Virus record (IMG/VR): IMGVR_UViG_3300021963_000004
Span: 1-42,743 of that record
DNA length: 42,743 nucleotides
Source of the DNA: a virus
Strand: one strand, 5' to 3'
Shown: positions 1,990-42,743 of the stretch, piece by piece
How the letters are laid out: each line of letters opens with the position of its first letter
Numbering within the stretch: the stretch's first letter is position 1
Notes under the pieces: generated by a model
The model's input: the letters and a program-made list of their open reading frames with translations, nothing else
Database searches by the model: none
What the model was told of the DNA's origin: nothing
Position numbers and translations under genes: made by a program

Positions 1990-4605
1990 CTATGCAAAGA
2001 AGTATTGTGATTGGTTGACTAACTCTAGCTGAAACGTCCCCTTCGCTGGCTGCTCGGCTATCAGCCGGTTACGGACCTCCTCTGTGAGTCCATTGGTGGC
2101 CTCTCGCACAAAGTTTCCCATCACATCCCCTTGGTACACATCCACAAACGCTTGACGCAGGCCCACGTACAGCTTGTCCATCTCGCAGGCATGGACCCCG
2201 TAGCTGTCATGCACCATCGCAAAGCTCGTGATCCCCTCGTCCAATGCGCGGTTGATCGTGAGCATGAGGCAGGCGGCATCCAATGAGTGAATAAAGTTCG
2301 GGCTAATTCCTTGGGCCTGCGCCCTCCTGTCGAGCCGCTCTGAGTCCTTCCGCAGCATCGCTCGGTACCGTTGCCCCCCGCCCAGGATGAGGTCCACCCT
2401 GAACTGGTCCTGATCCCTGTTGTCCTGCTGCACTGGAAATCCCATCGGCGTGGTCCAGCGGATCGTCCGGCCCCCATCCGTCACGGCCTTGGCGACCGAC
2501 TTCAACCACTTCATCACGGCCCCTGCTGAGGTGATCGTCTCCCCGATGGTCTTCCACACATGCGTTGAGAAGAACTGCGTAGCCGCAAACTCATCCTCGA
2601 ATGGATGCGGCTCCTTCTCACTCCGCTCCTTGACGTACTCTCGGATGTACTCGGTCGCTGCGTGCTGCGTGCCAGAGTACGGGAGAATCATTACGGCTCG
2701 CTTGGTGGCCTTTCGGTCGAAGCCCCAGGCAAGCCATTCCTTTGCGAGAGGCTCATCCATCGCAACGAACTTGGCTTTAACCTTATTGGCCACAATCTGG
2801 TAGATGTCCGATGGTACTTCTGAAGGCGCGAGGTTGACAGAGTTCGCTCCGTCAGCATCCAACAACATAGCTGAGAAGTGTTGTAGCCCGTTGCAGGTAC
2901 CATCCACTGTCACTGGTAGGTGAGAGACATAATTCTCATAGTCTCCACTCTCTACCGCTGCGGCTAGCTCTATCGCAGCGGCCATGAACTGCCATGGCTT
3001 GTCGGCGTCCATCCACTCCCGATTGGTGAATGGCTCTTTGACGCAGGCTATGATCCAGTCCATGTTATTCATCGTCCACTGCTCGCGCTGGTCGTAGCTC
3101 ACCTTGTCCTCGCCGTGCATGTTGGCGATGTGAATGTGCAACCACCGCCAGCCCGATGCACCGAACCGCTTCCCCTCTGCGAACTCAAGCAACCCCTTCG
3201 CCGTATCTGTCCCTTGCGGGTTGAGGATGGAAGGCATGGGATACATGCGCCCGCGAAAATCTAGCTGCGTGGGGAAATAGATGGCCTGCTCGTCCGCGAA
3301 CTTCTCGGCCAACAGGATCGTGTGCTCCATCTGGTAGACCCTGCCGATCTGTGCCTCACGCGCCGCGTACACCTTCGAGGCCACCCGATTGCGAGCCTGG
3401 ATCTCCTCTGGACTCGATCCCTCTATCGCCTTGGGCGTCATAGGGAAGGCCGCCGCCATCGTCTCCGCCGTGGTGCGTACCGGCATCTTGCCGATAGCGA
3501 TTCCCCCCTTGTACCACGCCTCCGAGAGGACTGCGAGCAAGGGCTTATTGATCCGCCATGCGGTAGCCTGCACTGCGTTGGTCGCTCGGTACACGGCTGG
3601 CATCTTTGCCTGGTCTAGTATGTGGAACTGCTCGACCGCTTCCTTGTTCCGCCCGCTCAACGCCTTCACGAGGCGCACAGGTGAGAGGACTTCCTGCGAC
3701 CCGTAGTACCCGCCCTTCCTAATCGTGTCCCACTGCAACGGCGGGATGATCGTCGGCAGGAACATCGGACGCACCCAGCCCGCGTCCTCGATCCATTCGT
3801 TGATGTAGGTCACGGTGTCCGGTGTGGCCCGCACCATCTCCGGCATGATACGGTTACGTCCTGGCGCAACCTTCAGCGAGATGAGCGTGGTCTGTTCCGC
3901 GATGATTGTCAGCACCAGATACCCCAGCGTGGCTAGCTCTGCGGCGGTGAACGGTGTCCATCCCCTCAAGGCTTGGCCGGTATCGTCCCCCTTGATGGAG
4001 TGATTCATAATCGACGCCCGCCGTTTCATGTTCGGCTCGCGCCGCTCAAGATCCTTGAGGACCGTCGTAAACAGGGCGGGGTTACACCGTTTGGCATGAC
4101 GGAACTTGAGTTGCGCCTCAAGGTTCCGCCCGATGCTCATAGCGGTGCGGGTGGATTTCCATGCTGCGGAAACGCCCGCCATGACCCCTTCGAGTCCGAT
4201 CAGTGCGACTACCCGCATTTGGGCGGGCTTATCCGCTTCCCACGCGGCTAGTGCTGCCTTCTCTTCCTTGTTCATCGGGCCATTATCCTTGACACGAGCC
4301 GGTGGAGTCCCCCAGAACCGGCGCAAGAGTAGACGACTGCTCGCCCCCCTGCCCGATCCGGTGGCATTTGCAAACTCCTCGCAGGCCATGCCCACCCGCT
4401 CGATGCTGGTGGAAATCAGACTCCGGCCATAGCCGGTCATGTGCTCAGTGTGCGCCTGCTGGTGGGACTGCTTGTGCCTGGTCTGCCCTGGCCGACGGGA
4501 ATCGGGCACCGTCTTTCCTTCGACCACCGTGACCTGGACGCGCCGCTGTCCGAGGCCAGTCATCTCAGCTTCCAGGGCTAGCTGCCTCGCATATTGGTTG
4601 TCCAT
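1990..4605 (-). CDS. Phage single-subunit RNA polymerase (T7 gp1-like)
   Basis: 871 residues (T7: 883), DNA-directed RNA polymerase for middle and late phage genes. All catalytic residues are present: Asp568 in VDGTCNGLQHFSAM, Lys635 and Tyr643 in TKRAVMILPYSGT, and Asp800 in HDSYG. It ends ...YFFA, like the FAFA terminus of T7 RNAP that feeds into the active site. AAGGAGG lies about 10 bases before the ATG. The integrase is 55 bases upstream, and a phage-type promoter motif sits in that gap. The first ~100 residues diverge strongly from T7 and run into a basic stretch. Identification is firm; the specificity loop differs from T7, so the promoter should differ too. Confidence 0.97.
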   Translation of the reverse strand: MDNQYARQLALEAEMTGLGQRRVQVTVVEGKTVPDSRRPGQTRHKQSHQQAHTEHMTGYGRSLISTSIERVGMACEEFANATGSGRGASSRLLLRRFWGTPPARVKDNGPMNKEEKAALAAWEADKPAQMRVVALIGLEGVMAGVSAAWKSTRTAMSIGRNLEAQLKFRHAKRCNPALFTTVLKDLERREPNMKRRASIMNHSIKGDDTGQALRGWTPFTAAELATLGYLVLTIIAEQTTLISLKVAPGRNRIMPEMVRATPDTVTYINEWIEDAGWVRPMFLPTIIPPLQWDTIRKGGYYGSQEVLSPVRLVKALSGRNKEAVEQFHILDQAKMPAVYRATNAVQATAWRINKPLLAVLSEAWYKGGIAIGKMPVRTTAETMAAAFPMTPKAIEGSSPEEIQARNRVASKVYAAREAQIGRVYQMEHTILLAEKFADEQAIYFPTQLDFRGRMYPMPSILNPQGTDTAKGLLEFAEGKRFGASGWRWLHIHIANMHGEDKVSYDQREQWTMNNMDWIIACVKEPFTNREWMDADKPWQFMAAAIELAAAVESGDYENYVSHLPVTVDGTCNGLQHFSAMLLDADGANSVNLAPSEVPSDIYQIVANKVKAKFVAMDEPLAKEWLAWGFDRKATKRAVMILPYSGTQHAATEYIREYVKERSEKEPHPFEDEFAATQFFSTHVWKTIGETITSAGAVMKWLKSVAKAVTDGGRTIRWTTPMGFPVQQDNRDQDQFRVDLILGGGQRYRAMLRKDSERLDRRAQAQGISPNFIHSLDAACLMLTINRALDEGITSFAMVHDSYGVHACEMDKLYVGLRQAFVDVYQGDVMGNFVREATNGLTEEVRNRLIAEQPAKGTFQLELVNQSQYFFA

Positions 4606-4630
4606 CTCTCTCGCCTCCTTGGTTTACTCC

Positions 4631-4656
4631 TGTACATAGTGGGTGGGATAGGGTGA
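4631..4656 (-). promoter_or_regulatory. Candidate phage RNAP promoter P1
   Basis: Read on the minus strand: CCTATCCCACCCACTATGTA. The CACTATG core resembles T7-family promoters (T7 CACTATAGG; the gh-1 type has CACTATGG). The same motif occurs at 34891-34914 and 10386-10409. Here it lies in the gap in front of the RNA polymerase gene and could autoregulate it. Confidence 0.55.
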
Positions 4657-4668
4657 GATACTACCCTA
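4649..4668 (-). terminator. Weak hairpin at the end of the integrase
   Basis: TAGGGT and ACCCTA can pair around an 8-base loop across the integrase stop codon. There is no U-tract. It may be an attenuator or simply part of the promoter region. Confidence 0.3.
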
Positions 4669-5476
4669 ACACCTTGATTGCGCTGGCTAAAGTCGCAACT
4701 GAGAGGTGCGCGTACTGCATGGTCTGCTGGATGTTGGAATGTCCCAGCAATCGACTGACCGTGGCGATATCCACCCCACCCTGGACCAGCCTCGATGCAA
4801 ACGTATGTCGCAGGGCATACGGTACAAACTCAGAATCTCCCCGCAGGCCTAGCTCTCGACGCCCCACGGCCCACGCCTTAGAGAACCAGTTGTTGGAATA
4901 CGGGAACACCAGGCCTTCCCGCCCTGCCATGATCGCCCTCACCCGCTCTGTCATGGGCACAGAACGCGGTCTGTCGGTCTTGGAGAACACGCACCGGATG
5001 CACCCCGCCTCGATATCCCGTGCTTCCAGGTGCCACAATTCAGAGGGTCTGAGGCCGGTGTCAATCAGGACCATGAGCGCATTGGACTGCTCCCGAAACC
5101 CATGTGCGTCTAGCTCACAGATCATGTTGTATTCCTCGTCCTTGGTCAGCCAACGCAGTCGCCCCTGCCCGATCCTCTTGAACGGGAAGTGCGGCCTACT
5201 GGTAATCTGGTCACGCTGTTGATAGTACGTGAACACCTTAGACAGAGCCATGAGGTTCCGGTTGACTGAGGCTGGCGCAAGCCCTCTCCCCGCCAGCCAC
5301 ACCGCGTACAGGTCGAGGCTCACCGTCCGAATCGAGGTGAGTTCGCGGTCTCCGAAGAACTCCTTGGCCAGATCCAGGGCGTGCTGCGCGGTCACCTCAG
5401 CCCTGGTTCCACGATACACAGCACCCATGACCTCACTTGCCGCGTGGTGCAGCGAGAGCATTTTGACGGTCTTCAT
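4661..5476 (-). CDS. int: Tyrosine recombinase / integrase
   Basis: 271 residues from the ATG at 5476 (AGAGGT upstream; an earlier ATG at 5530 lies inside the preceding gene). There is an N-terminal SAM-like DNA-binding part (about 20-95) and a catalytic domain with Arg143 (TGLRPSEL), Lys166 (FSKTDRPRSVP), Arg223 (YALRHTF), His246 (LLGHSN) and nucleophile Tyr255 (QQTMQYAH). The first position of the HxxR box is Tyr instead of His, a tolerated variant. It would recombine phage attP with a host site. It sits directly before the RNA polymerase, as in integrase-bearing T7-like cyanophages and pelagiphages. No attP or tRNA-like core was found beside it. Confidence 0.93.
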   Translation of the reverse strand: MKTVKMLSLHHAASEVMGAVYRGTRAEVTAQHALDLAKEFFGDRELTSIRTVSLDLYAVWLAGRGLAPASVNRNLMALSKVFTYYQQRDQITSRPHFPFKRIGQGRLRWLTKDEEYNMICELDAHGFREQSNALMVLIDTGLRPSELWHLEARDIEAGCIRCVFSKTDRPRSVPMTERVRAIMAGREGLVFPYSNNWFSKAWAVGRRELGLRGDSEFVPYALRHTFASRLVQGGVDIATVSRLLGHSNIQQTMQYAHLSVATLASAIKVLG

Positions 5477-5693
5477 CTCGACACCTCTTGAAGTGGTTAT
5501 AGATTTCGTCCTGTACCGGCGTCCGCTCAATCGCCTCCATCTTCACAAACCAATTCTTGGACCCTGGTCCACACTCATCGTGCCGCCAGTGCCGGAAGCC
5601 CACCGACTGCCACTGTCCCCAGGCCACGCGCCCGCAGACCAGGCAATGCTCATCCATCGGCCCGCATATTTCTACTTGTTTGGTCTTCACCAT
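5433..5693 (-). CDS. Small Cys/His-rich (possible zinc-binding) protein
   Basis: 86 residues. Residues 17-41 hold EHCLVCG, then a His pair (FRHWRHDEC), a plausible C2-HC zinc site. I chose the ATG at 5693 (MVKTKQ) because GGAGAG lies just upstream; that ribosome site is part of the GAGAGCTAGCATG repeat. The gene overlaps the 55-residue gene before it and the integrase after it. Function unknown; possibly a regulator or host-takeover factor. Confidence 0.65.
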   Translation of the reverse strand: MVKTKQVEICGPMDEHCLVCGRVAWGQWQSVGFRHWRHDECGPGSKNWFVKMEAIERTPVQDEIYNHFKRCRDEDRQNALAAPRGK

Positions 5694-6450: not shown

Positions 6451-6505
6451 TGGTCTCTCCCCATGGCGGAACTCGGCACAAGACTCTATACCCCCTCTCC
6501 GGTGA

Positions 6506-6558
6506 TGCTGTCGTGCTAGTTCTCCGCCTCATTTTCGCCTGCTGTCAAGCTAGTTCTC
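6506..6558 (-). repeat. Early-gene repeat, copies 5 and 6 in tandem
   Basis: Minus strand GAGAACTAGCTTGACAGCA (6558-6540) and GAGAACTAGCACGACAGCA (6524-6506), 34 bases apart. Between and around them only very short frames exist, for example about 31 codons starting MRRRTSTTASPERGY. They sit in the gap downstream of the GP88 gene terminator. Confidence 0.7.
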
Positions 6559-6614
6559 GGCCTGTTTTCCTCATTTTTCAGGATATTTTTTCACAAAGCA
6601 AGACCCGTGCCACT

Positions 6615-6636
6615 GAAAATTTTGCCATACGGCAAG
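6615..6636 (-). terminator. Rho-independent terminator after GP88 gene
   Basis: On the minus strand TTGCC and GGCAA pair around a four-base loop, followed by AATTTT. It lies just below the GP88 stop codon. Confidence 0.55.
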
Positions 6637-6644
6637 AATTATGC

Positions 6645-7442
6645 CTATCGTTCTGACAACAAAAACTCCGCATTATCAATAGCTTGTGAGAATTTATCCG
6701 CCTTGTCGTCGTCGTCGTCACTATTTAGGCGCTTGTCAATTTGGATTACAAAACTTCCCGCTATCTCTTTTTTTCTTGCCTTTCCCTTTGCCTTTAGGCC
6801 AATGACTACCGGACCGCTCTGGTCTAAGAATCTAAGATCATTCTCTTCCCCCGATACTACCGGATAGCCTAGCCAAGTTTCTGGAAAGTCTTTAGAAGAG
6901 AAAACCGTAGCGACATGCCCACCATTGGCCAATACTTCTTGACACTGACCTACATTTTCTCCGGAGTAAGAGAATGTTAAATGATAATTAGATGGTAACT
7001 CCCCCCTAAGATAACGGCTCATTTTGAAAAAGTCTTTTGTGTAATCGTAGAATTGCACATCTGGAAACTTCAACATGATGGACCGTGGCCACTTAATATC
7101 TGTTGTACCGTTCAATCTAACCACTAGCTTTTTCCCTTGCTTACTGGCACGTTTTAACTCGTTTGCAATCTCTTTTTCCAGCTTAGCTATAAACGTAGTC
7201 CTATCTGTTAGGAATTCAATAGCCTTACGCTTGCGGGCTAGTGCAATAACTGGAAAGATACCCGCTCGCCCTGCGGTATTAAGACATGCTGCTAAGCAGG
7301 ATTGACTTGCAAATGGGCATAGATTGACCCCTAGGTCATTCTCTTTTCCAGGCGACATGAAAAGACCTAGCGTTAGGTACTCCCCCCCTTCACCCTTTGC
7401 TAGTTTCGTGTTTGCTTTACCTTCTGTTAATAATTTAGACAT
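6645..7442 (-). CDS. GP88-family protein (Pfam 'Gene product 88'-like)
   Basis: 265 residues matching what I know of the GP88 family: NTKLAKGEGGEYLTLGLFMSP, a cysteine cluster (Cys42, Cys49, Cys53 in LCPFASQSCLAACLNTAGRAG minus its ends), VVRLNGTTDIKW, FPDVQFYDYTKDF, NYHLTFSYSGEN, and NDLRFLDQSGPVVIGLKAKG. The strand-helix periodicity and three clustered cysteines suggest a barrel with a metal or iron-sulfur site; that is inference, and biochemical function is unknown. The C-terminus has an Asp run (NSDDDDDKAD). The ATG follows AAAGGGGGG. The gene is AT-rich compared with the structural genes and pairs with DUF932, suggesting a module gained together. Confidence 0.75.
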   Translation of the reverse strand: MSKLLTEGKANTKLAKGEGGEYLTLGLFMSPGKENDLGVNLCPFASQSCLAACLNTAGRAGIFPVIALARKRKAIEFLTDRTTFIAKLEKEIANELKRASKQGKKLVVRLNGTTDIKWPRSIMLKFPDVQFYDYTKDFFKMSRYLRGELPSNYHLTFSYSGENVGQCQEVLANGGHVATVFSSKDFPETWLGYPVVSGEENDLRFLDQSGPVVIGLKAKGKARKKEIAGSFVIQIDKRLNSDDDDDKADKFSQAIDNAEFLLSER

Positions 7443-7471
7443 GCAATCCCCCCCTTTGTTAGTAAAATGAT

Positions 7472-7510
7472 AAAAACTACCACAAGGCGGTAGGGTACCA
7501 ACCTACCGCC
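7472..7510 (-). terminator. Hairpin terminator between DUF932 and GP88 genes
   Basis: GGCGGTAGG and CCTACCGCC form a perfect 9-bp stem with a seven-base loop. On the minus strand a TTTTT run follows nine bases after the stem. It would reduce transcription of the GP88 gene from upstream. Confidence 0.6.
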
Positions 7511-7521
7511 CTAGCTAGATT

Positions 7522-8307
7522 TTATGCTGCCAATTGCGACGCCAAAGACCAGAGACCGGAGTTTATAGACATATTAGCATCGATACTTGTAACCGCTCTA
7601 ACACGTCGCCCGCGTAGGCCATGCAACCCCTTTGCTAGTAGGTTTTCTTGGATTACATTGTAGGCGCTGAATAGGTCCGATTTCATGTCCTGATACCTTC
7701 TAGGTTGTAGGACGCGTCCGGCCATTATGTCGTTCTCCTCGTATCCTAACTTTGGATACTTGAGCGCCACTGCTTGTTTGGCAAACAGTTTCAACCCTTC
7801 TTGACTTACTATGGTATTTTGCATCGATGCTACGGTATTAGCAGCGTTTTCTTGCATGGAAAGAATACGCTGGATAGATGCCATAAAACCGTTCAACCCT
7901 CTTCCGGTATGATGCAACCTACCGGTCGTAAACATATCTCCCCCCATTACTAGACCATTGCTACAAACGAGGCGGTAGCATCCTAATGAGGCGGAAAGGC
8001 TGCTTGCCTTATCATGTGAATTGACAACAACAATCTCCCAATGTAATCCACCTAAGACCGGCGCTGAATTGAGCGCTCGAAACCGTAACATATGTTTGGT
8101 ATAGGCCCCCTTGCCTTCAATCCTCGTTCGGCTTTGGCTAGCATGTACTGGAACAAAGCCAATTTCTTTTTTCACCATGTCAATAATATCCAGCGTGCTT
8201 GCGAATTTATAGCTGGCCGATACTCCCCCCCATGGTGATACCGCCTTCACGCTGCTTGGCAAGTCAAGGTATTCAATTCCAGTTTCATTGTATAGTGCGT
8301 TATTCAT
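7522..8307 (-). CDS. DUF932 phage/plasmid-like protein
   Basis: 261 residues from the ATG at 8307 (MNNALYNETG), chosen because GGGAGAA lies 9 bases upstream; another ATG at 8322 overlaps that site. Features of the DUF932 family are seen: FVPVHASQSRTR, the central HMLRFR and GLHWEIVVVNSHDKASSL stretches, and LGCYRLVCSNGLVMGG. Members occur widely on phages and plasmids and their role is unknown. It is followed by a terminator and the GP88 gene; such neighbours recur in phage accessory regions. AT-rich relative to late genes. Confidence 0.75.
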   Translation of the reverse strand: MNNALYNETGIEYLDLPSSVKAVSPWGGVSASYKFASTLDIIDMVKKEIGFVPVHASQSRTRIEGKGAYTKHMLRFRALNSAPVLGGLHWEIVVVNSHDKASSLSASLGCYRLVCSNGLVMGGDMFTTGRLHHTGRGLNGFMASIQRILSMQENAANTVASMQNTIVSQEGLKLFAKQAVALKYPKLGYEENDIMAGRVLQPRRYQDMKSDLFSAYNVIQENLLAKGLHGLRGRRVRAVTSIDANMSINSGLWSLASQLAA

Positions 8308-8359
8308 GATAAATTCTCCCATGGTTTGTTGGTTTGTTGTTTGAAGGACTACTACTATT

Positions 8360-8440
8360 CTATAGGACTATGCAAAGGTATATTGCGCCTATTGCCATTA
8401 CAACCGCACTGGACCAACCGAAAAGGTTTGCTATCGTCAC
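8360..8440 (-). CDS. Possible 26-residue single-span membrane peptide
   Basis: A GTG-started frame giving 26 residues, almost entirely a hydrophobic span (AVVMAIGAIYLCIVL), between the 59-residue gene and DUF932. The ribosome site is weak; the start lies right after the stop of the upstream gene, so reinitiation would be needed. Kept because the composition is so clearly that of a membrane span. Confidence 0.35.
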   Translation of the reverse strand: MTIANLFGWSSAVVMAIGAIYLCIVL

Positions 8441-8444
8441 TCTA

Positions 8445-8624
8445 TTATACACTTGCCACCTTTGCCATCTTACGCAACAATAGCCACCCTCTTTTTTCCG
8501 CTCGTGCTATCTTATCGTATTCAATTGAACGGTCTAAGGAATTAAACCGCGTTATTCCTTGTCTATATGGTGGAATGTTTGTTGTCTTCCTTACCGTCAC
8601 TATGTTTGCACGCGTACTGCCCAT
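8445..8624 (-). CDS. Basic 59-residue protein, first early gene
   Basis: Starts MGSTRANIVTVRKTTNIPPY and ends RGWLLLRKMAKVASV; strongly basic. AAAGGGGG lies about 6 bases before the ATG, the same style of ribosome site as the GP88 gene. It is the first ORF after the promoter and structured leader at 8661-8893, so it would be among the first proteins made. A regulator or host-takeover role would fit, but no DNA-binding motif is clear. Confidence 0.6.
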   Translation of the reverse strand: MGSTRANIVTVRKTTNIPPYRQGITRFNSLDRSIEYDKIARAEKRGWLLLRKMAKVASV

Positions 8625-8660
8625 GATAGCCCCCTTTGTTGATTGTTTGAAAACATAAGG

Positions 8661-8853
8661 CACGTAGTCTTTTAGATGGTAGGTTTCTCCGGTCTTGATT
8701 AGGGTATGAGCTGCTAAACCTTGAATCTAGTCTTATTGACTATAACCTACGGTCTAGAGTTTTCTCTTTTCCCTCTTATTGCGCCATCCGTTTCTAGTGG
8801 CCTGTCAAGGTTTAAGACCTTCTTTTCACTACTACCATCTAAAACACTACGTG
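8661..8853 (-). ncRNA. Putative structured RNA / leader (long inverted repeat)
   Basis: Bases 8661-8682 and 8832-8853 are inverted repeats of 22 bp with a single mismatch (CACGTAGT...GATGGTAG). Inside, 8691-8696 pairs with 8814-8819 (GGTCTT/AAGACC), 8715-8724 pairs with 8805-8814 (10 bp perfect, TAAACCTTGA/TCAAGGTTTA), and 8728-8732 pairs with 8738-8742. All pairings are nested, giving one long imperfect hairpin. A sigma70-like promoter places transcription start 3-5 bases before the 5' arm. No good ORF fits inside. It may be a free ncRNA, a leader of the early operon, or a DNA-level element. Confidence 0.55.
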
Positions 8854-8863
8854 CACACTGGAT

Positions 8864-8893
8864 ACTATAGCATAATCCAGACCTAAAACGCAA
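8864..8893 (-). promoter_or_regulatory. Sigma70-like early promoter
   Basis: Minus strand: TTGCGT (8893-8888), 18-base spacer, TATAGT (8869-8864) with an extended TGC just before it. Predicted start is about 8858-8856, immediately before the inverted-repeat RNA. Suits recognition by host polymerase for the early block. Confidence 0.55.
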
Positions 8894-8955
8894 TATATTA
8901 AAAAACAATAGGATAGCATGTTGCGCCACTTCTATAGCCTTCAATGTTGTCAAGG

Positions 8956-9050
8956 TTCTTTACACTTTATTCAGCAAGGTGTCAAAACACTAGGAAATCA
9001 GTGTAAAGAAACTTGACAGGCCTATTGTAAGAGTCTTTACACCTTTACAC
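8956..9050. promoter_or_regulatory. Operator-like cluster of CTTTACAC octamers
   Basis: Four copies of CTTTACAC: 8958-8965, 9001-9008 (inverted), 9035-9042 and 9043-9050 (tandem). The first two lie in a perfect 11-bp inverted repeat (TTCTTTACACT, 8956-8966 and 9000-9010). A minus-strand TTGACA (8985-8980) with TAAAGA 17 bases on lies between and over them, and a plus-strand TTGACA is at 9013-9018. Looks like repressor or activator sites controlling divergent or early promoters. Confidence 0.55.
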
Positions 9051-9055
9051 TAGCA

Positions 9056-9101
9056 GCATGAAACGGTAGGCTTTTGTTGATTGAAGGCATGAAACGGTAG
9101 G
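9056..9101. repeat. 15-bp direct repeat, two copies
   Basis: GCATGAAACGGTAGG at 9056-9070 and 9087-9101, a 31-base period (about three helical turns). Directly beside the octamer cluster; the second copy abuts a TTGACA (9103-9108). Probably protein-binding sites or iterons. Confidence 0.6.
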
Positions 9102-9110
9102 ATTGACACA

Positions 9111-9540
9111 AAAAGAAAAAACTAAAGAACGACAATATGATGGCCGGTCTGGTCTAATCGCTCTGCCCAATCTCATATATGATGATATTCTTTCCCTATC
9201 TTTTCAATGCTTTACGGTCTGATTTCCGATTTCAATTCAGGATTTTGAGTCTTTTCGATGGAATTTTGACCCGACGACGGGGGAATTCCAGCCGAGTGAC
9301 CACCACGTATCCCCTAACAGATTTTTTCTCCAAAATATCAACAGGATAGCCCCCTACTCCGAGCCTTCCGAGGCGAGGGGAGGGGGCTTCACTGGTGACA
9401 AGGGTTGCCTATGGGTGCCCACACTGTCCCCCAGATAGGGGCTAGAAGGGGCCGTCCTGACTCTGAGCCGAGACTTCTTTCCAAACTGGGGCTACCCCAT
9501 GCGTTGGCCTCTCGACTCGTCCTGGGGCATCCTAGGCGTT
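9111..9540. other. Non-coding interval, probable genome-end region
   Basis: 430 bases between the last late gene and the early control region with no convincing ORF on either strand. The part 9111-9340 is AT-rich. The part 9345-9540 is GC-rich with several hairpins, including CCCC/GGGG stems near 9431-9446. In T7-like genomes this position, after the last late gene and before the early promoters, holds the terminal repeats, which a circular assembly collapses. No direct evidence for the exact ends. Confidence 0.45.
9348..9388 (-). terminator. Hairpin with 8-bp perfect outer stem
   Basis: AGCCCCCT (9348-9355) pairs with AGGGGGCT (9381-9388); inner GAGCC/GGC segments can also pair. It lies about 150 bases after the last late gene on the minus strand. 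No U-run directly follows, so it may be a late terminator or a packaging-related structure. Confidence 0.4.
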
Positions 9541-36584: not shown

Positions 36585-38378
36585 TCAGTGGATGTCAGCC
36601 CAACTTTTTCCTTGGTGGGCGTCCGCTTCGGTTTTGATTCTGAGTCCGAAGTGCTTCCCTGCTTCGATAATGGTACACTGCGCGATTTCTTTTGCTGCAT
36701 CAGTGCCTCTGCCTTTCGTGACAAGTACAAGCTCGTCATGTATGTAACCCACTTGCCGAATCTCACCCGTCTGAAAGTACCCGCGACTCCGAATCTCTCG
36801 GTTAAATAAGACCACCCACATCTTCGTAAGGATCGCCCCCGCCGATTGCAGCAGGGTATTCAGTGCCGCGTGGTCAGACCGTATGTGGAGGAACCGGCCA
36901 TCCAGTCCTCGGATGGACCGATGCACTGTAGCCTTCACACCCACCGCTTGCTTCAGTTGGTTGAGCGCGGGGAACTGCGTGAGGAATCGGTTACGTAAGG
37001 TGCGTCCCGCCGTTGGCCCTCTCCCTACAATCTGCCCAATTTTTCCATCGCCCGCGCCATAGATAAATCCGTAGATAAAAATCTTGGCCTGGTCCCGCGT
37101 CTCTAGGCCCGCCATCGTCTGGTGGAATGTGTGCGGGTCGCCCGTTGTCACAACCTTCGCATACGCACCGGCATCGTACCGAGCCAGATAGTGGCCCAGC
37201 ATGCGAAGCTCTAGCCCCTTGGCGTCCGAGCCTATCATCTCATGCCCCTCTGGTGCCTTGAACAGCGCACGTACCCGCTTGCCTAGGTCACCCACGCGAG
37301 GGATGTTCCCCAGGTTCGGGTTCTTGTGTGAGCACCGGCCTGTGCCTGTGCCACACGTATCGACCTGACCGTGGATCCGCCCCTTCTTCACCATCTTGAG
37401 GTACGCGGTCTTGCCCTCAGCCACCATGCCGATGACCTTCTGAATTTCTGAGTGACGGGCGAGGAGCTTACACTCCGGCCACTCGGTCCCCAAGGCTACG
37501 AGCGTGTCGTAGTCTGTCTCAGGTTGGCCCGTCTCGGTGAAGGATTCGGGTTGCCATCCCCTGACTTTAATGAGTCTCTCAGCGATGTGCTTGTGACTGC
37601 GGGGGTTAAACGTAACCATCTTTGATTTCGCATACGGTACGCCCTTAGTATATCCTTTAGCCTTGTTATCTCGCTTTGGGATAAACTCCGTTGACTCTTG
37701 CCAGGGCGTGAACGCGAGTTGAAGTACTCCCTCCAACTCTGCTCTCTCTGCTGCGAGGTCAGTGTAGAGGGACGCCGCTGCTTGTTCATCAAAGGGCATT
37801 CCTTCCTCTTCTTGGTCTAGCATGTACCCCTTGAGTTCCATCTCTAGGTCATGCGCCTGTTGGCTGAACCGTACTGACTCGGTGATCGCCTGATACAGCT
37901 TCACCGTCACCCGTATGTCCTGGGCGCAGTAGTCCTGTAAGCCCTGGCTCCATTCCTCGAACCCGTATTGCGCCAACTCTCCCTTGAGTTCGCCGAGCCG
38001 GTACCCCCACGCCTTGAGGCTATGCCGCCCGATCATACCGGCGGGGAAGTCGGGGTTCTTCCGCCGCGTCTTGAAGTCTATGTCCCGTATCTCCGTCCAC
38101 AATACCTTCGAGTCTAACAAGGTGTCCCAGGTCTTGCCCTTTGGCGTGAAGTTGTAGAGTTTCTTCAGCACCCGCAGGTCGTAGTCGAGAATGTTGTGGC
38201 CGATCAAGTAGTCTGCCCGCTCCAACATGGGAAGGATCGCTCGTATCCCCTCGTCTGTTGGCCCGCCGACTGAATGCACTACCCCATCTGCGAGGTCACA
38301 CCACGCAAGGCACCACACTCGGTCTACGGTGTCCAGCAAGCCGTTGGTTTCTAAGTCGAACACGATCCTCGTTTCCAT
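36585..38378 (-). CDS. DNA polymerase, A family (T7 gp5-like)
   Basis: 597 residues (T7 gp5: 704). The exonuclease domain is intact: RIVFDLETNGLLD, GHNILDYDLRVLK, YCAQDIRVTVKLY. Polymerase motifs: A at GSDAKGLELRMLGHYL, B at RDQAKIFIYGFIYGAGDGKI (with Tyr at the nucleotide-discriminating position), C at GYIHDELVLV. It ends KSWADIH like T7 (GKTWADIH). Shorter than T7, mainly in the linker and thumb region. TAGGAGGG precedes the ATG. It would copy the genome with primase-helicase and SSB. Confidence 0.96.
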   Translation of the reverse strand: METRIVFDLETNGLLDTVDRVWCLAWCDLADGVVHSVGGPTDEGIRAILPMLERADYLIGHNILDYDLRVLKKLYNFTPKGKTWDTLLDSKVLWTEIRDIDFKTRRKNPDFPAGMIGRHSLKAWGYRLGELKGELAQYGFEEWSQGLQDYCAQDIRVTVKLYQAITESVRFSQQAHDLEMELKGYMLDQEEEGMPFDEQAAASLYTDLAAERAELEGVLQLAFTPWQESTEFIPKRDNKAKGYTKGVPYAKSKMVTFNPRSHKHIAERLIKVRGWQPESFTETGQPETDYDTLVALGTEWPECKLLARHSEIQKVIGMVAEGKTAYLKMVKKGRIHGQVDTCGTGTGRCSHKNPNLGNIPRVGDLGKRVRALFKAPEGHEMIGSDAKGLELRMLGHYLARYDAGAYAKVVTTGDPHTFHQTMAGLETRDQAKIFIYGFIYGAGDGKIGQIVGRGPTAGRTLRNRFLTQFPALNQLKQAVGVKATVHRSIRGLDGRFLHIRSDHAALNTLLQSAGAILTKMWVVLFNREIRSRGYFQTGEIRQVGYIHDELVLVTKGRGTDAAKEIAQCTIIEAGKHFGLRIKTEADAHQGKSWADIH

Positions 38379-38392
38379 GTACCCTCCTAGTG

Positions 38393-38617
38393 TTACTCTC
38401 GTGGCTTCAGTTTTAACTGGATCAACCCGCTGTGATTGTCGTGCGTCATTATCACTTCGGGGTAATCCTTCCCTGCATTGGCGACGCTCTCACACGAGAG
38501 TACTATCACCCCTCCATGACGCGACAATAGGTCAGCGAACATACAGGATAACAGGCGTAGGTTGATATCCTCGATGACTCTAGTAGTCGTTGTTACCTCC
38601 GACTTCTCCTGCTCCAT
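38393..38617 (-). CDS. Hypothetical 74-residue protein
   Basis: Starts MEQEKSEVTTTTRVIEDINL, then RLLSCMFADLLSRHGGVIVL, a compact alpha/beta pattern. GAGGAGGT lies 6 bases upstream. Overlaps the primase-helicase stop by 38 bases and lies where T7 keeps genes 4.1-4.7. Unknown. Confidence 0.65.
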   Translation of the reverse strand: MEQEKSEVTTTTRVIEDINLRLLSCMFADLLSRHGGVIVLSCESVANAGKDYPEVIMTHDNHSGLIQLKLKPRE

Positions 38618-40202
38618 TCGGTACCTCCTCTTCCCCTATCGGGGCCATGCGCCCAGTATGCTTGTTGTACACCAACTCCCCTGCCTCGCCCGTCTCCCCA
38701 CTGAATCGGTTCTTCAGGACACGCAAGAGAGTAATGTTCTTTCGCTCCTCGTCTTGTTGGTTTCTCTCCTGGCCCACCACAATATCGGATAGCTGGCCGA
38801 TGCTCGCGCTACCTCGGAGCAGGCCCAGGTGGGTCAGTCCCCCTTCTTCCAACGGCGTCCCGTCTGGCCGCTTCAAGTGAGACACCAACAACAGCCCGAT
38901 AGGTAGCTCTTCAACCAGTGACCGTAGCTTGGTCATCAGGTTGTCGATCTTCCTTCGCTCGTCGCCGCTCTCGTCACCTGACACCATGATTGACAAGTGG
39001 TCCAGCACGATCCAGTTACACCCACATGCGTGTGCCATATACTTGATGCGCTGGAACAGGTTCTCCCCGTCGATGCTGCCCCAGTGGTCGTAGAAGAATA
39101 CACTGTTGGCTACCTCGTCCCACCCCTTCTTCAGGGTTTCGACTGAGGCTTTGGTTCTGGCGTGGGGGAGGTGGAGGGGAAGGTCAACGGTAATTGAAAC
39201 CAGGCCCCGTATACTTCGCTGTACGGACTCTTCGAGTGCGATGTAGCCCACTCGCTGTCCTTGTCGGATGGCGTGGACAGCAAGCTCTCGGCAGAGTTGA
39301 GACTTACCGACTCCGCTTCCGGCACAGAAGGTAACGATCTCATGTTGTCTGAGTCCCAGAAGTTTGTCTTGCAGATCCGGCCATGGGTAATCAATGGTGG
39401 CTGCATCGTCGCATCGTACAAGTAAGTCCCAGGTGGAAGTGCCCTCAACGATCCCATCTGGTCGATATACTTTTGCTCCCCAGAGGGCGTCCAAAAGTTC
39501 CTTAGCTCTTCCTGCCACGAGCATTTCGTTGGCGTCTTTGAGGGGGATGTTCCAGACTTTACACTTGCCTGGGGTAAGGAGGGGGGCACACTCAGCCATG
39601 GCTTCGCGGCCTGGGTCGTCCATGTCGAAGGCCAGGACCACGGTCTCGAACCCTTCAAGCCATTCAATCGACCGCGCAATGTCCTTCTTCGCTCCACCTG
39701 CACCATTTCGTAGTGAGACCACTGGCCAACGGTTGTCTTGAAGCTGAGAAATGGACATAGCGTCCACTTCGCCTTCAGTAATGACCACCATCTTACCCTT
39801 GTCCCGCCAGAGATGTTGCCCCCACATAACCGCTGGCTTAGCCTCACCAGTCCATGTGAAATCCTTATCGGGTGACCGGAGCTTCTGACCACAGAGGGCA
39901 CCGCTTGCATCGTGGTACGGGGCAATCTGCACAGGCTGTCCATGTCGAGTCCCAACCATGTATCCAAACTTGCGACAAGTTTTCTCATTGATCCCCCGTT
40001 TTTTGAGGTCACTAAAGGTACCTAATAAGAAGTCTTTAGGTATGGCTGACGCCTTCGCCACAGTCTCGCCGTTCTCCCCTTGCGTATGCACTTGGCAGAC
40101 GAAACAGTACGTATGCCCGTCGGTGTAGTGAGCGAGTCCATCGGATGAACCACACTCCGTACATGGTCCATGTTCAATAAACTCGCTCTCGGTTTTTTCC
40201 AT
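38580..40202 (-). CDS. Primase-helicase (T7 gp4-like)
   Basis: 540 residues (T7 gp4: 566). Zinc-binding domain with Cys14, Cys17, Cys33, Cys36; TOPRIM with VVITEGEVDAMSISQ and LAFDMDDPGREAM; RecA-like helicase with Walker A GSGVGKSQLCRELA, Walker B-like WIVLDHLSIMV, and LLVSHLKRP. The tail is acidic and ends in an aromatic residue (Tyr), as the T7 tail ends in Phe and contacts polymerase. It unwinds DNA and lays down primers. AAGGAGGAG precedes the ATG. Confidence 0.96.
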   Translation of the reverse strand: MEKTESEFIEHGPCTECGSSDGLAHYTDGHTYCFVCQVHTQGENGETVAKASAIPKDFLLGTFSDLKKRGINEKTCRKFGYMVGTRHGQPVQIAPYHDASGALCGQKLRSPDKDFTWTGEAKPAVMWGQHLWRDKGKMVVITEGEVDAMSISQLQDNRWPVVSLRNGAGGAKKDIARSIEWLEGFETVVLAFDMDDPGREAMAECAPLLTPGKCKVWNIPLKDANEMLVAGRAKELLDALWGAKVYRPDGIVEGTSTWDLLVRCDDAATIDYPWPDLQDKLLGLRQHEIVTFCAGSGVGKSQLCRELAVHAIRQGQRVGYIALEESVQRSIRGLVSITVDLPLHLPHARTKASVETLKKGWDEVANSVFFYDHWGSIDGENLFQRIKYMAHACGCNWIVLDHLSIMVSGDESGDERRKIDNLMTKLRSLVEELPIGLLLVSHLKRPDGTPLEEGGLTHLGLLRGSASIGQLSDIVVGQERNQQDEERKNITLLRVLKNRFSGETGEAGELVYNKHTGRMAPIGEEEVPNGAGEVGGNNDY

Positions 40203-40217
40203 TACTCCTCCTTGTGA

Positions 40218-40679
40218 TTAGACTTCAGGTGCAAACTCTGTCTTGTCGTCCACGTATTCCGACACATCAAACGACGGACACGCCTTGAGCGCATCGAGGT
40301 CTCGGTGCCCAACGATGACAGCTTGCGGGTACGTTTCATGTAACTCCTTCAGCGTCAGGTAGAGCGTGGTCCACTGCGCGTCGGTGAAGTTGTTCTCCGG
40401 TTGTAGCTTATCGTCAACACCCCCAACCAGACACACACCAACACTATCAAAGTTATGGCCCAATACATGCGCCCCCTGCTCAGATAGCAAGCGGCCTCTC
40501 TCTCTAGTTCCGTCACGACGAATGATGTAATGGTATCCCACATCAGAGAAGCCTCTCTTTCGATGCCATTCCTTGATCTCCTTCACGCCAATGTCCATCG
40601 TCGGTGTCGTGGCGGAACAGTGGATGACGATATAGTTTGTCACCTTCCTGAGCACGACCCACGGTTTCAATTCATCCAC
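40218..40679 (-). CDS. T7-type lysozyme (N-acetylmuramoyl-L-alanine amidase), copy 1
   Basis: 153 residues (T7 gp3.5: 151). Zinc ligands His20 (VIHCSA), His125 (GHRD) and Cys134 (KACPSFD); catalytic Tyr49 (GYHYII) and Lys132. In T7 this enzyme cleaves peptidoglycan and also inhibits T7 RNA polymerase, aiding replication and packaging. The start is GTG and follows the endonuclease stop at once (GAGGAGGAG upstream). It precedes primase-helicase, the T7 order 3-3.5-4. It has an intact C-terminus, unlike copy 2. Confidence 0.94.
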   Translation of the reverse strand: MDELKPWVVLRKVTNYIVIHCSATTPTMDIGVKEIKEWHRKRGFSDVGYHYIIRRDGTRERGRLLSEQGAHVLGHNFDSVGVCLVGGVDDKLQPENNFTDAQWTTLYLTLKELHETYPQAVIVGHRDLDALKACPSFDVSEYVDDKTEFAPEV

Positions 40680-40680
40680 G

Positions 40681-41079
40681 CTACTCCTCCTCTATCCACA
40701 TGCGGGGCACAATCTGCTTGGCATACAGGAAGCCATTCTTCTTGCACCAATCCGCGTAGGTTGTTTTTGATTTGGCACTGAGCTTCGCGTTCGGGTTGCT
40801 GAACACGAAGCGAATGTCTAGCTCTGGTCGTTGAAACTTGATACACAGATGCTTCGACCTATCGGCTGGCCTGAACCAGCCCTTGCACTCGATGAAGATT
40901 CCGTTGGGCAGTTGGAAGTCGGGATGGTACTGCCGTGGTCGCTTCTCCGAGTATTCAATCGGCTCGATCTCCTTCTCTCCCTTCGCATCAGGGCACTGCG
41001 CCCTGACCTCCACTTCGAGGCCAGAGCGTAGTCCTGTTGCTCGGCGCACCTTATCGGGGATACATCGAATGATGGGCAC
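40681..41079 (-). CDS. Endonuclease I (T7 gp3-like), copy A
   Basis: 132 residues. Catalytic set of the family: Glu22 (LRSGLE), Asp54 (YHPDFQLPNGIF), Glu64 and Lys66 (IECKG); the rest follows T7 gp3 (RSKHLCIKF, PELDIRFVF, TTYADWC). The start is GTG, lying inside the reading frame of lysozyme copy 2. Bases 40873-41057 (residues about 8-69, with all catalytic residues) are identical to copy B, while the C-terminal half has diverged. It would resolve recombination junctions and degrade host DNA. Confidence 0.9.
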   Translation of the reverse strand: MPIIRCIPDKVRRATGLRSGLEVEVRAQCPDAKGEKEIEPIEYSEKRPRQYHPDFQLPNGIFIECKGWFRPADRSKHLCIKFQRPELDIRFVFSNPNAKLSAKSKTTYADWCKKNGFLYAKQIVPRMWIEEE

Positions 41080-41456
41080 GCCTTACCCGCGTCCAGGTCT
41101 CGGTGCCCTACGATCACGGCTTTCGGGTATGCTTCGTGGAGTTCCTTCAGCGTGAGGTAGAGGGTCGTCCACTGCTCGGAGGTAAAGTTGTCTTCAGGAG
41201 TGAGGGTGCCGTCACCGCTAACACCACCGACAAGACAAACACCAACGCTGTGATGATTATGCCCAACCACATGAGCGCCAATTTCATTGAGCGGTCTCCC
41301 TCTCTCTCTGGTGCCATCACGTCGGATGACGTAGTGATAGCCAATGGTGAAAAATCCTCGTTCTCGATGCCACTCAGTTATTTCCTTTATCCCTATGTCC
41401 ATTTTCGCAGGGGAGGCGCTGCAATGAACGCAGATATAGCTGGTTGCTGTTCTCAC
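40818..41456 (-). CDS. T7-type lysozyme, copy 2, with out-of-frame tail
   Basis: Residues 1-133 are a lysozyme paralogue of copy 1, with His11, Tyr40, His118, Lys125 and Cys127 all kept. At residue 133 (FDVS, base 41058) homology stops and the frame runs on for 79 residues across endonuclease copy A in the wrong frame, so the normal last ~13 residues are lost. The start is GTG with AAGGAA upstream. Either a real fused junction or an assembly chimera at the shared endonuclease block. If real, it may be a second RNAP inhibitor or amidase. Confidence 0.7.
   Translation of the reverse strand: MRTATSYICVHCSASPAKMDIGIKEITEWHRERGFFTIGYHYVIRRDGTRERGRPLNEIGAHVVGHNHHSVGVCLVGGVSGDGTLTPEDNFTSEQWTTLYLTLKELHEAYPKAVIVGHRDLDAGKACPSFDVSPIRCAEQQDYALASKWRSGRSALMRRERRRSSRLNTRRSDHGSTIPTSNCPTESSSSARAGSGQPIGRSICVSSFNDQS
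40873..41057. repeat. 185-bp block identical to 42645..42743 plus 1..127
   Basis: Every base matches the other endonuclease copy through this block. On one side (below 40873) the copies stay homologous but diverged; on the other (above 41057) similarity ends at a CCGATAAGG joint. The block covers the catalytic half of endonuclease I. Confidence 0.9.
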
Positions 41457-42448: not shown

Positions 42449-42743
42449 GCTTTGATTCCTCCTCTATCCACGCTTGCGGGACCGTTCCCTTGGCGTATTT
42501 GAACCCGAACTTGAAACACCACATACCGTAGGTGGTCTCCGATCCCTTGCCGAGCTTGGCCTTCGGATTCGTGAACACAAACCGTATGTCCAACTCTGGA
42601 TGCTGGTACTTGATACACAGATGCTTCGACCGGTCGGCAGGTCGGAACCAGCCCTTGCACTCGATGAAGATTCCGTTGGGCAGTTGGAAGTCGGGATGGT
42701 ACTGCCGTGGTCGCTTCTCCGAGTATTCAATCGGCTCGATCTC
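42438..42743 (-). CDS. Endonuclease I, copy B, C-terminal part (continues from 152..1)
   Basis: Encodes YHPDFQLPNGIFIECKG with the catalytic Asp, Glu and Lys, then RSKHLCIKYQHPELDIRFVF and TTYGMWCFKFG, ending WIEEESKHGN at a TGA (42440-42438). From 42645 upward the sequence is identical to copy A; below that it differs by scattered changes. Frame is preserved across the contig join, giving a full 138-residue enzyme with 1..152. Confidence 0.85.
   Translation of the reverse strand, partial: EIEPIEYSEKRPRQYHPDFQLPNGIFIECKGWFRPADRSKHLCIKYQHPELDIRFVFTNPKAKLGKGSETTYGMWCFKFGFKYAKGTVPQAWIEEESKHGN
42703..42743. repeat. 41-bp terminal overlap with 1..41
   Basis: Identical to the first 41 bases of the window; see the matching entry. 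Part of the 185-bp duplicated block. Confidence 0.95.

Follow-up and report, generated by a model that had tools for sequence, protein, structure and literature searches.

The RNase III processing sites of phage T7 are short irregular hairpins between cistrons, and the 5′ untranslated region (UTR) of Escherichia coli ompA carries small hairpins. The T7 early transcript contains RNase III processing sites, R0.3 and others, according to Dunn and Studier as cited in PMC4858673. Secondary structure at the 5′ end, as in the ompA stabiliser, makes for stable mRNA, since both RNase E and RppH depend on a single-stranded 5′ terminus (PMC3997798). Stems for RNase III are also found around 16S and 23S rRNA and around the intervening sequences of alphaproteobacterial 23S rRNA (PMC6121014).

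The element described here is known in kind, as an RNA stem in the early leader of a T7-like phage, and is a variant in form, found in one contig. As with the T7 sites, a base-paired element with double-stranded RNA of RNase III size stands before the first early gene, in the early operon of a T7-like phage that is transcribed by host RNA polymerase (here judging from the promoter). Unlike the T7 sites, it consists of two arms that form a long stem around a 149-nt insert, starts from the presumed 5′ end, and is a putative rather than an established cleavage site. As in the ompA 5′ UTR, the stem would lie a few nucleotides from the presumed 5′ end, and it stands before a Shine-Dalgarno (SD) sequence and an open reading frame (ORF); unlike the ompA hairpins, it is long enough for RNase III, and its stabilising effect is putative. 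The rRNA stems are similar in that two arms far apart in the sequence pair around an insert open to excision by RNase III. They differ in that our locus is not rRNA, has no sequence relation to it, and encloses an insert with no known product.

The window analysed is the whole of the 42,743-base IMG/VR virus record IMGVR_UViG_3300021963_000004. It is a contig of an uncultured T7-like (Autographiviridae) phage with an integrase. All assigned genes are on the minus strand, and their order follows the T7 plan.

1990-4605, minus strand, single-subunit RNA polymerase (RNAP)
4661-5530, minus strand, tyrosine-type integrase
6645-7442, minus strand, GP88
7522-8322, minus strand, DUF932 early gene, syntenic in two other contigs, L105 and L185
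10625-12334, minus strand, terminase large subunit (TerL)
36585-38378, minus strand, DNA polymerase
38580-40202, minus strand, primase-helicase

Among named phages, the best matches of the RNAP were 34% identical and those of TerL about 55% (Roseobacter CRP phages and Desulfovibrio phage ProddE). The integrase adjoins the T7-type RNAP, an arrangement also seen in phages BB8 and ProddE, which suggests a temperate lifestyle; the phage is probably a temperate T7-like phage. The G+C content of the first early genes and leader (6500-9300) was ~43-46%, against ~57% elsewhere in the window. An endonuclease and amidase cassette formed a diverged tandem duplication (1-127, 40261-41402 and 42457-42743) with copies 81% and 70% identical. 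Positions 1-127 equal 40931-41057, and 1-41 equal 42703-42743. Since both contig ends fall within the repeat, the contig may look circular only as a result of assembly.

The fold of interest sits at the junction of the late and the early genes. The features of this region, in the order of the minus strand, were as follows.

9346-9398, minus strand, strong G+C-rich hairpin, late terminator-like as judged from the sequence, not part of the leader
8948-9018, minus strand, second inverted repeat (IR) with 19-nt arms (8948-8966 and 9000-9018), GTGTAAAG half-sites and outward-facing TTGACA
8864-8893, minus strand, putative host sigma-70 promoter (TTGCGT, 18 nt, TGC-TATAGT), from sequence and motif score
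8832-8854, minus strand, 5′ arm of the leader stem, GCACGTAGTGTTTTAGATGGTAG, pairing probability ~1.0 for most pairs
8683-8831, minus strand, enclosed 149-nt segment, weakly structured, with no ORF confined to it
8660-8682, minus strand, 3′ arm of the leader stem, CTACCATCTAAAAGACTACGTGC, pairing probability ~1.0 for most pairs
8630-8637, minus strand, SD AAAGGGGG of the first early ORF, like the SDs before the early ORFs of L105 and L185
8445-8624, minus strand, first early ORF, 59 aa, ATG at 8624, no family match

The two arms (8660-8682 and 8832-8854) are 96% complementary and 149 nt apart, so that the whole fold, read as minus-strand RNA, takes up 195 nt (8854-8660). The first-pass annotation had given arms of 22 bp with one mismatch. 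The single mismatch was correct, but the arms are 23 nt long; 22 of the 23 positions pair, and the only mismatch, G-G, divides the stem into 9 + 13 bp. This is about two turns of near-continuous double-stranded RNA, as a T7-type RNase III site requires. No other IR in the window had arms of at least 17 nt with a spacing of 60-400 nt. Its score (length minus 2 per mismatch) was 21. When 8300-9420 was shuffled 2000 times by dinucleotides, the best score was 16, and 200 block shuffles of the complete window reached 17 at most. The minus-strand RNA of 8860-8650 had a folding energy of -70.0 kcal/mol; shuffled sequences gave -43.6 +/- 4.1 kcal/mol, so that z was -6.4. The IR is thus confirmed as real and not a product of chance.

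The arms alone contributed about -36 kcal/mol, about half of the total folding energy, and the enclosed 149 nt showed mild structure only (z = -2.8). Nested inner stems of 6, 10 and 5 bp had been proposed earlier, but the fold prediction does not give this arrangement. The 10-bp element (8715-8724 and 8805-8814) exists as sequence but not in the predicted structure: its pairing probability was ~0.002, and forcing it cost 3.9 kcal/mol in fold prediction. The proposal that no plausible ORF lies inside the repeat was borne out, as no ORF of at least 20 codons was confined to the loop. Four ORFs overlap it (8721-8870 and 8779-8886 on the plus strand, 8747-8953 and 8839-8919 on the minus strand), extend through the arm and promoter, and have no supporting context. 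A reading of the loop as a coding segment was therefore dropped.

A promoter had been placed precisely at the 5′ arm. There is a plausible one: its -10 (TATAGT, 8869-8864) matches at 5 of 6 positions and has an extended TG, and it is the only site with such a score (9, including the TG) within 60 nt of the arm. Its -35 (TTGCGT, 8893-8888) matches at just 3 of 6 positions, which is why a stricter scan missed it. The -10 ends 9 nt ahead of the 5′ arm, so that +1 is predicted about 2-4 nt before the arm (~8858-8856). From the sequence, we infer a start by host RNA polymerase at ~8857. The fit to the arm is weaker than the first-pass annotation had it. The -35 is poor, and about 4.6% of positions in the region lie equally close behind an equal-scoring site; position alone would give such a fit in ~5% of cases, and we treat it as no more than suggestive. 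A stem near the 5′ end is the ompA-type criterion, and here the predicted +1 is 2-4 nt from the arm, the promoter is weak and the start is predicted only.

On the minus strand, the late hairpin is followed by an AT-rich control stretch, the promoter, the fold, the SD, the 59-aa ORF and DUF932, and the early genes after the leader (DUF932, GP88, integrase and RNAP) are on the same strand. The 3′ arm ends 23 nt before the SD and 36 nt before the ATG, and the SD is not locked into the stem according to the pairing prediction. Because the early promoter precedes the fold and the first early gene, with its SD and ATG, follows it, the simplest reading is that of a 5′ leader to the first early message rather than a gene on its own. 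Among the readings offered by the first-pass annotation, those of an early-operon leader and an RNase III target fit best, because the SD and ATG of the first early ORF follow the 3′ arm at 23-36 nt.

By analogy with T7 early RNA, we give about an even chance to the reading that the early leader stem is an RNase III processing site, a shield of the 5′ end, or both. Host RNA polymerase would start at ~8857, just ahead of the 5′ arm, and once the 3′ arm was made, the arms would close into the stem of 9 + 13 bp. The closed stem would hide the 5′ end from enzymes requiring a single-stranded 5′ terminus, and host RNase III would find in it two turns of double-stranded RNA. The enzyme would cut both strands and free the insert of ~150 nt, so that the trimmed mRNA would begin about 30-50 nt upstream of the first early ORF. 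Overall, this would set how stable the first early message is and how well it is translated. RNase III cleavage of a stem is something that sequence alone cannot predict, and the two roles, target and shield, would be partly opposed to each other. If this reading is true, T7-like early operons have a long two-arm leader in addition to the short RNase III sites already known, and stems of this type are gained and lost quickly between relatives.

Relatives were sought by DNA, by arm, and by scans with RNAP, DUF932 and TerL (viral_contigs and genome_contigs). No close DNA relative was found among phages (near and distant) or plasmids, and the arm had no exact match in viral_contigs. The same gene order was present in two contigs, L105 (TerL 70%, DUF932 39%) and L185 (TerL 75%, DUF932 36%); other loci from the RNAP, DUF932 and TerL scans were less useful or more distant. 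In L105 and L185, the IR scan detected no IR of at least 15 nt, and there was no folding signal just before the first early ORF. A more permissive repeat finder reported a 16-nt IR with two mismatches in L185. L105 has a good promoter (TTGGCA-17-TATCAT) that runs straight into the SD and ORF. The same fold with compensatory changes, as in a conserved structural RNA, was thus not seen, since neither contig has a comparable fold. Arm changes that break pairing, which had been suggested as evidence against the RNA, were not seen either: the element is absent from L105 and L185 rather than decayed. Because these two contigs are syntenic with the window and lack it, the element is lineage-specific, an add-on and not a core part of the phage.

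For similar repeats elsewhere, all fetched loci (about 250, mostly of Autographiviridae type) were scanned for long IRs. On the sense strand, IRs of at least 23 nt within 60 nt of a sigma-70-like promoter were found only in the window (23 nt), L124 (25 nt) and L128 (23 nt). The antisense strand served as a control, with a longest promoter-proximal IR of 19 nt; in 133 additional loci, made up of DUF932 hits and of TerL hits from bacterial genomes, none exceeded 18 nt. The two repeats outside the window, from more distant T7-like IMG/VR contigs, were as follows.

L124, 3547-3860, long IR bracketing the first early ORF
L128, 3573-3904, long IR bracketing the first early ORF

Like the IR in the window, these have arms of 23-25 nt behind a sigma-70 promoter at the start of a T7-like early region; each follows a good promoter at the first early cistron, and their folds had z of about -5. 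Unlike the window, their loops hold an ORF (78-83 aa, with its own SD), and the arm begins 34-45 nt after the -10, with roughly 27-38 nt of lead ahead of it. They show no similarity to the window in sequence. The gene in the loop and the longer lead make them analogues, not homologues. In the 157 loci that extend 1.5 kb or more beyond TerL, we found 6 IRs of 20 bp or longer in the 485 kb behind this gene and none in the 571 kb preceding it; this count is an upper bound for RNA elements, because some of the repeats look like DNA repeats (L123 and L115). L115 shares its next gene with L124 but lacks the bracket. The long early IR appears to arise repeatedly and independently and to be easily lost, and the window, L124 and L128 provide three loci for studying how T7-like phages tune their first message.

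A more general proposal is that temperate T7-like phages repeatedly and independently bracket the first transcribed early segment with an IR of 20-25 bp, and that RNase III excises this segment as a separate RNA (a small mRNA in L124 and L128, an ncRNA with its own role in the window). We regard this as distinctly improbable. If true, it would mean that the first product is uncoupled, at the RNA level, from the rest of the early operon.

Two other IRs may be mentioned here. L102 (ProddE) has a perfect 25-bp IR with a 63-nt loop (1090-1202) in its early region, after the excisionase gene. L262 has an IR with 48-nt arms (4517-4691) upstream of its DUF932 gene, with z = -14.6 as RNA; it was rejected as a relative because it consists of a sigma-70 promoter and its inverted copy (TTGACA-17-GATAAT in both directions).

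The repeat might act as DNA, with the RNA fold as a by-product: its arms could bind a protein such as a repressor or an initiator of replication, serve as a signal for recombination or packaging, or be the terminal repeats of a small mobile element. Palindromic operator-like repeats do occur near early promoters in L164 and L123, L262 has its inverted promoter copy, the second IR of the window is operator-like and lies 94 nt upstream, and TTGACA-containing motifs recur within the loop and upstream. The arms themselves, however, are not palindromic and hold no promoter, are single-copy in the genome with no exact match in viral_contigs, and have no flanking target duplication; a spacing of 149 nt is also long for an operator pair. 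We therefore consider a DNA-level role unlikely for the leader repeat. The second IR, in contrast, is more likely to be a set of operator-type DNA sites than part of the leader, although any transcript that starts further upstream would fold there too.

A discrete early ncRNA of ~200 nt would start at the arm, stop at least partly after the 3′ arm and act on host or phage targets. The start and end of the fold would fit a self-contained RNA with paired termini, the loop has no confined ORF, and a U-rich stretch, CUUAUGUUUU, follows the 3′ arm. This stretch is loose and interrupted, however, and the terminator scan scored no intrinsic terminator after the 3′ arm. An intrinsic terminator or attenuator has a compact G+C-rich stem, a short loop and a U run, whereas here a loop of 149 nt and an interrupted U tract are poor for termination. 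The SD and ORF directly downstream also argue against such an RNA. No known family had been recognised earlier, in agreement with our searches: the covariance models of Rfam 15, including 6S RNA and riboswitches, gave no match at the gathering score, and a relaxed threshold over 8300-9400 gave only eukaryotic families, far below their gathering scores. A free-standing ncRNA is quite unlikely, and the decoy or protection roles once suggested for it are less supported than the leader reading.

Alternatively, the repeat could have no function and be left over from an inverted duplication, or from a cassette, since lost, of the IR-bracketed gene-in-loop type seen in L124 and L128. Its absence from syntenic relatives and its empty loop, where those of L124 and L128 can hold an ORF, would be expected of a remnant. 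Non-coding space in phages is scarce, however, and the repeat is placed exactly between promoter and SD; with 22 of 23 positions paired, the stem is either recent or kept. We rate the remnant reading as rather improbable. Signs of a small MITE-like mobile element were not found: the arms are single in the genome and there was no similarity in phages or plasmids, and the flanks (CCAGTGT and CTTATGT) have no common direct repeat as a target-site duplication. A phi29-type pRNA, a retron msr/msd and an anti-CRISPR RNA were dropped (T7-type terminase, no reverse transcriptase among the genes examined, no Rfam match, single-copy arms), and a tRNA-linked attachment site was rejected because no tRNA was found.

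The control stretch upstream of the leader stem has several repeats of its own. Four GTGTAAAG half-sites, two of them as the second IR, are at 8948-9018 and 9035-9051, upstream of the early promoter; they are candidates for the operators of a lysogeny repressor. Similar palindromes, GTTTACACTGTAAAC, lie behind TerL in L164. The sequence AACCTTGACA(GGCC) is at 8799-8814 in the leader insert and at 8948-8957 and 9009-9022 in the arms of the upstream IR, so that a transcript initiated upstream could pair with the insert. Pairs of direct repeats (15-18 nt, spaced 31-32 nt) lie upstream of the early promoter both in the window (9056-9104) and in L105 (3169-3217), with different sequences. Just past the late hairpin, ATCTGTT, the class II pause/terminator motif of T7 concatemer junctions, is at 9316-9322 on the minus strand. 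This 7-mer occurs 9 times in the window, and the copy at 9316-9322 may mark the terminal repeat.
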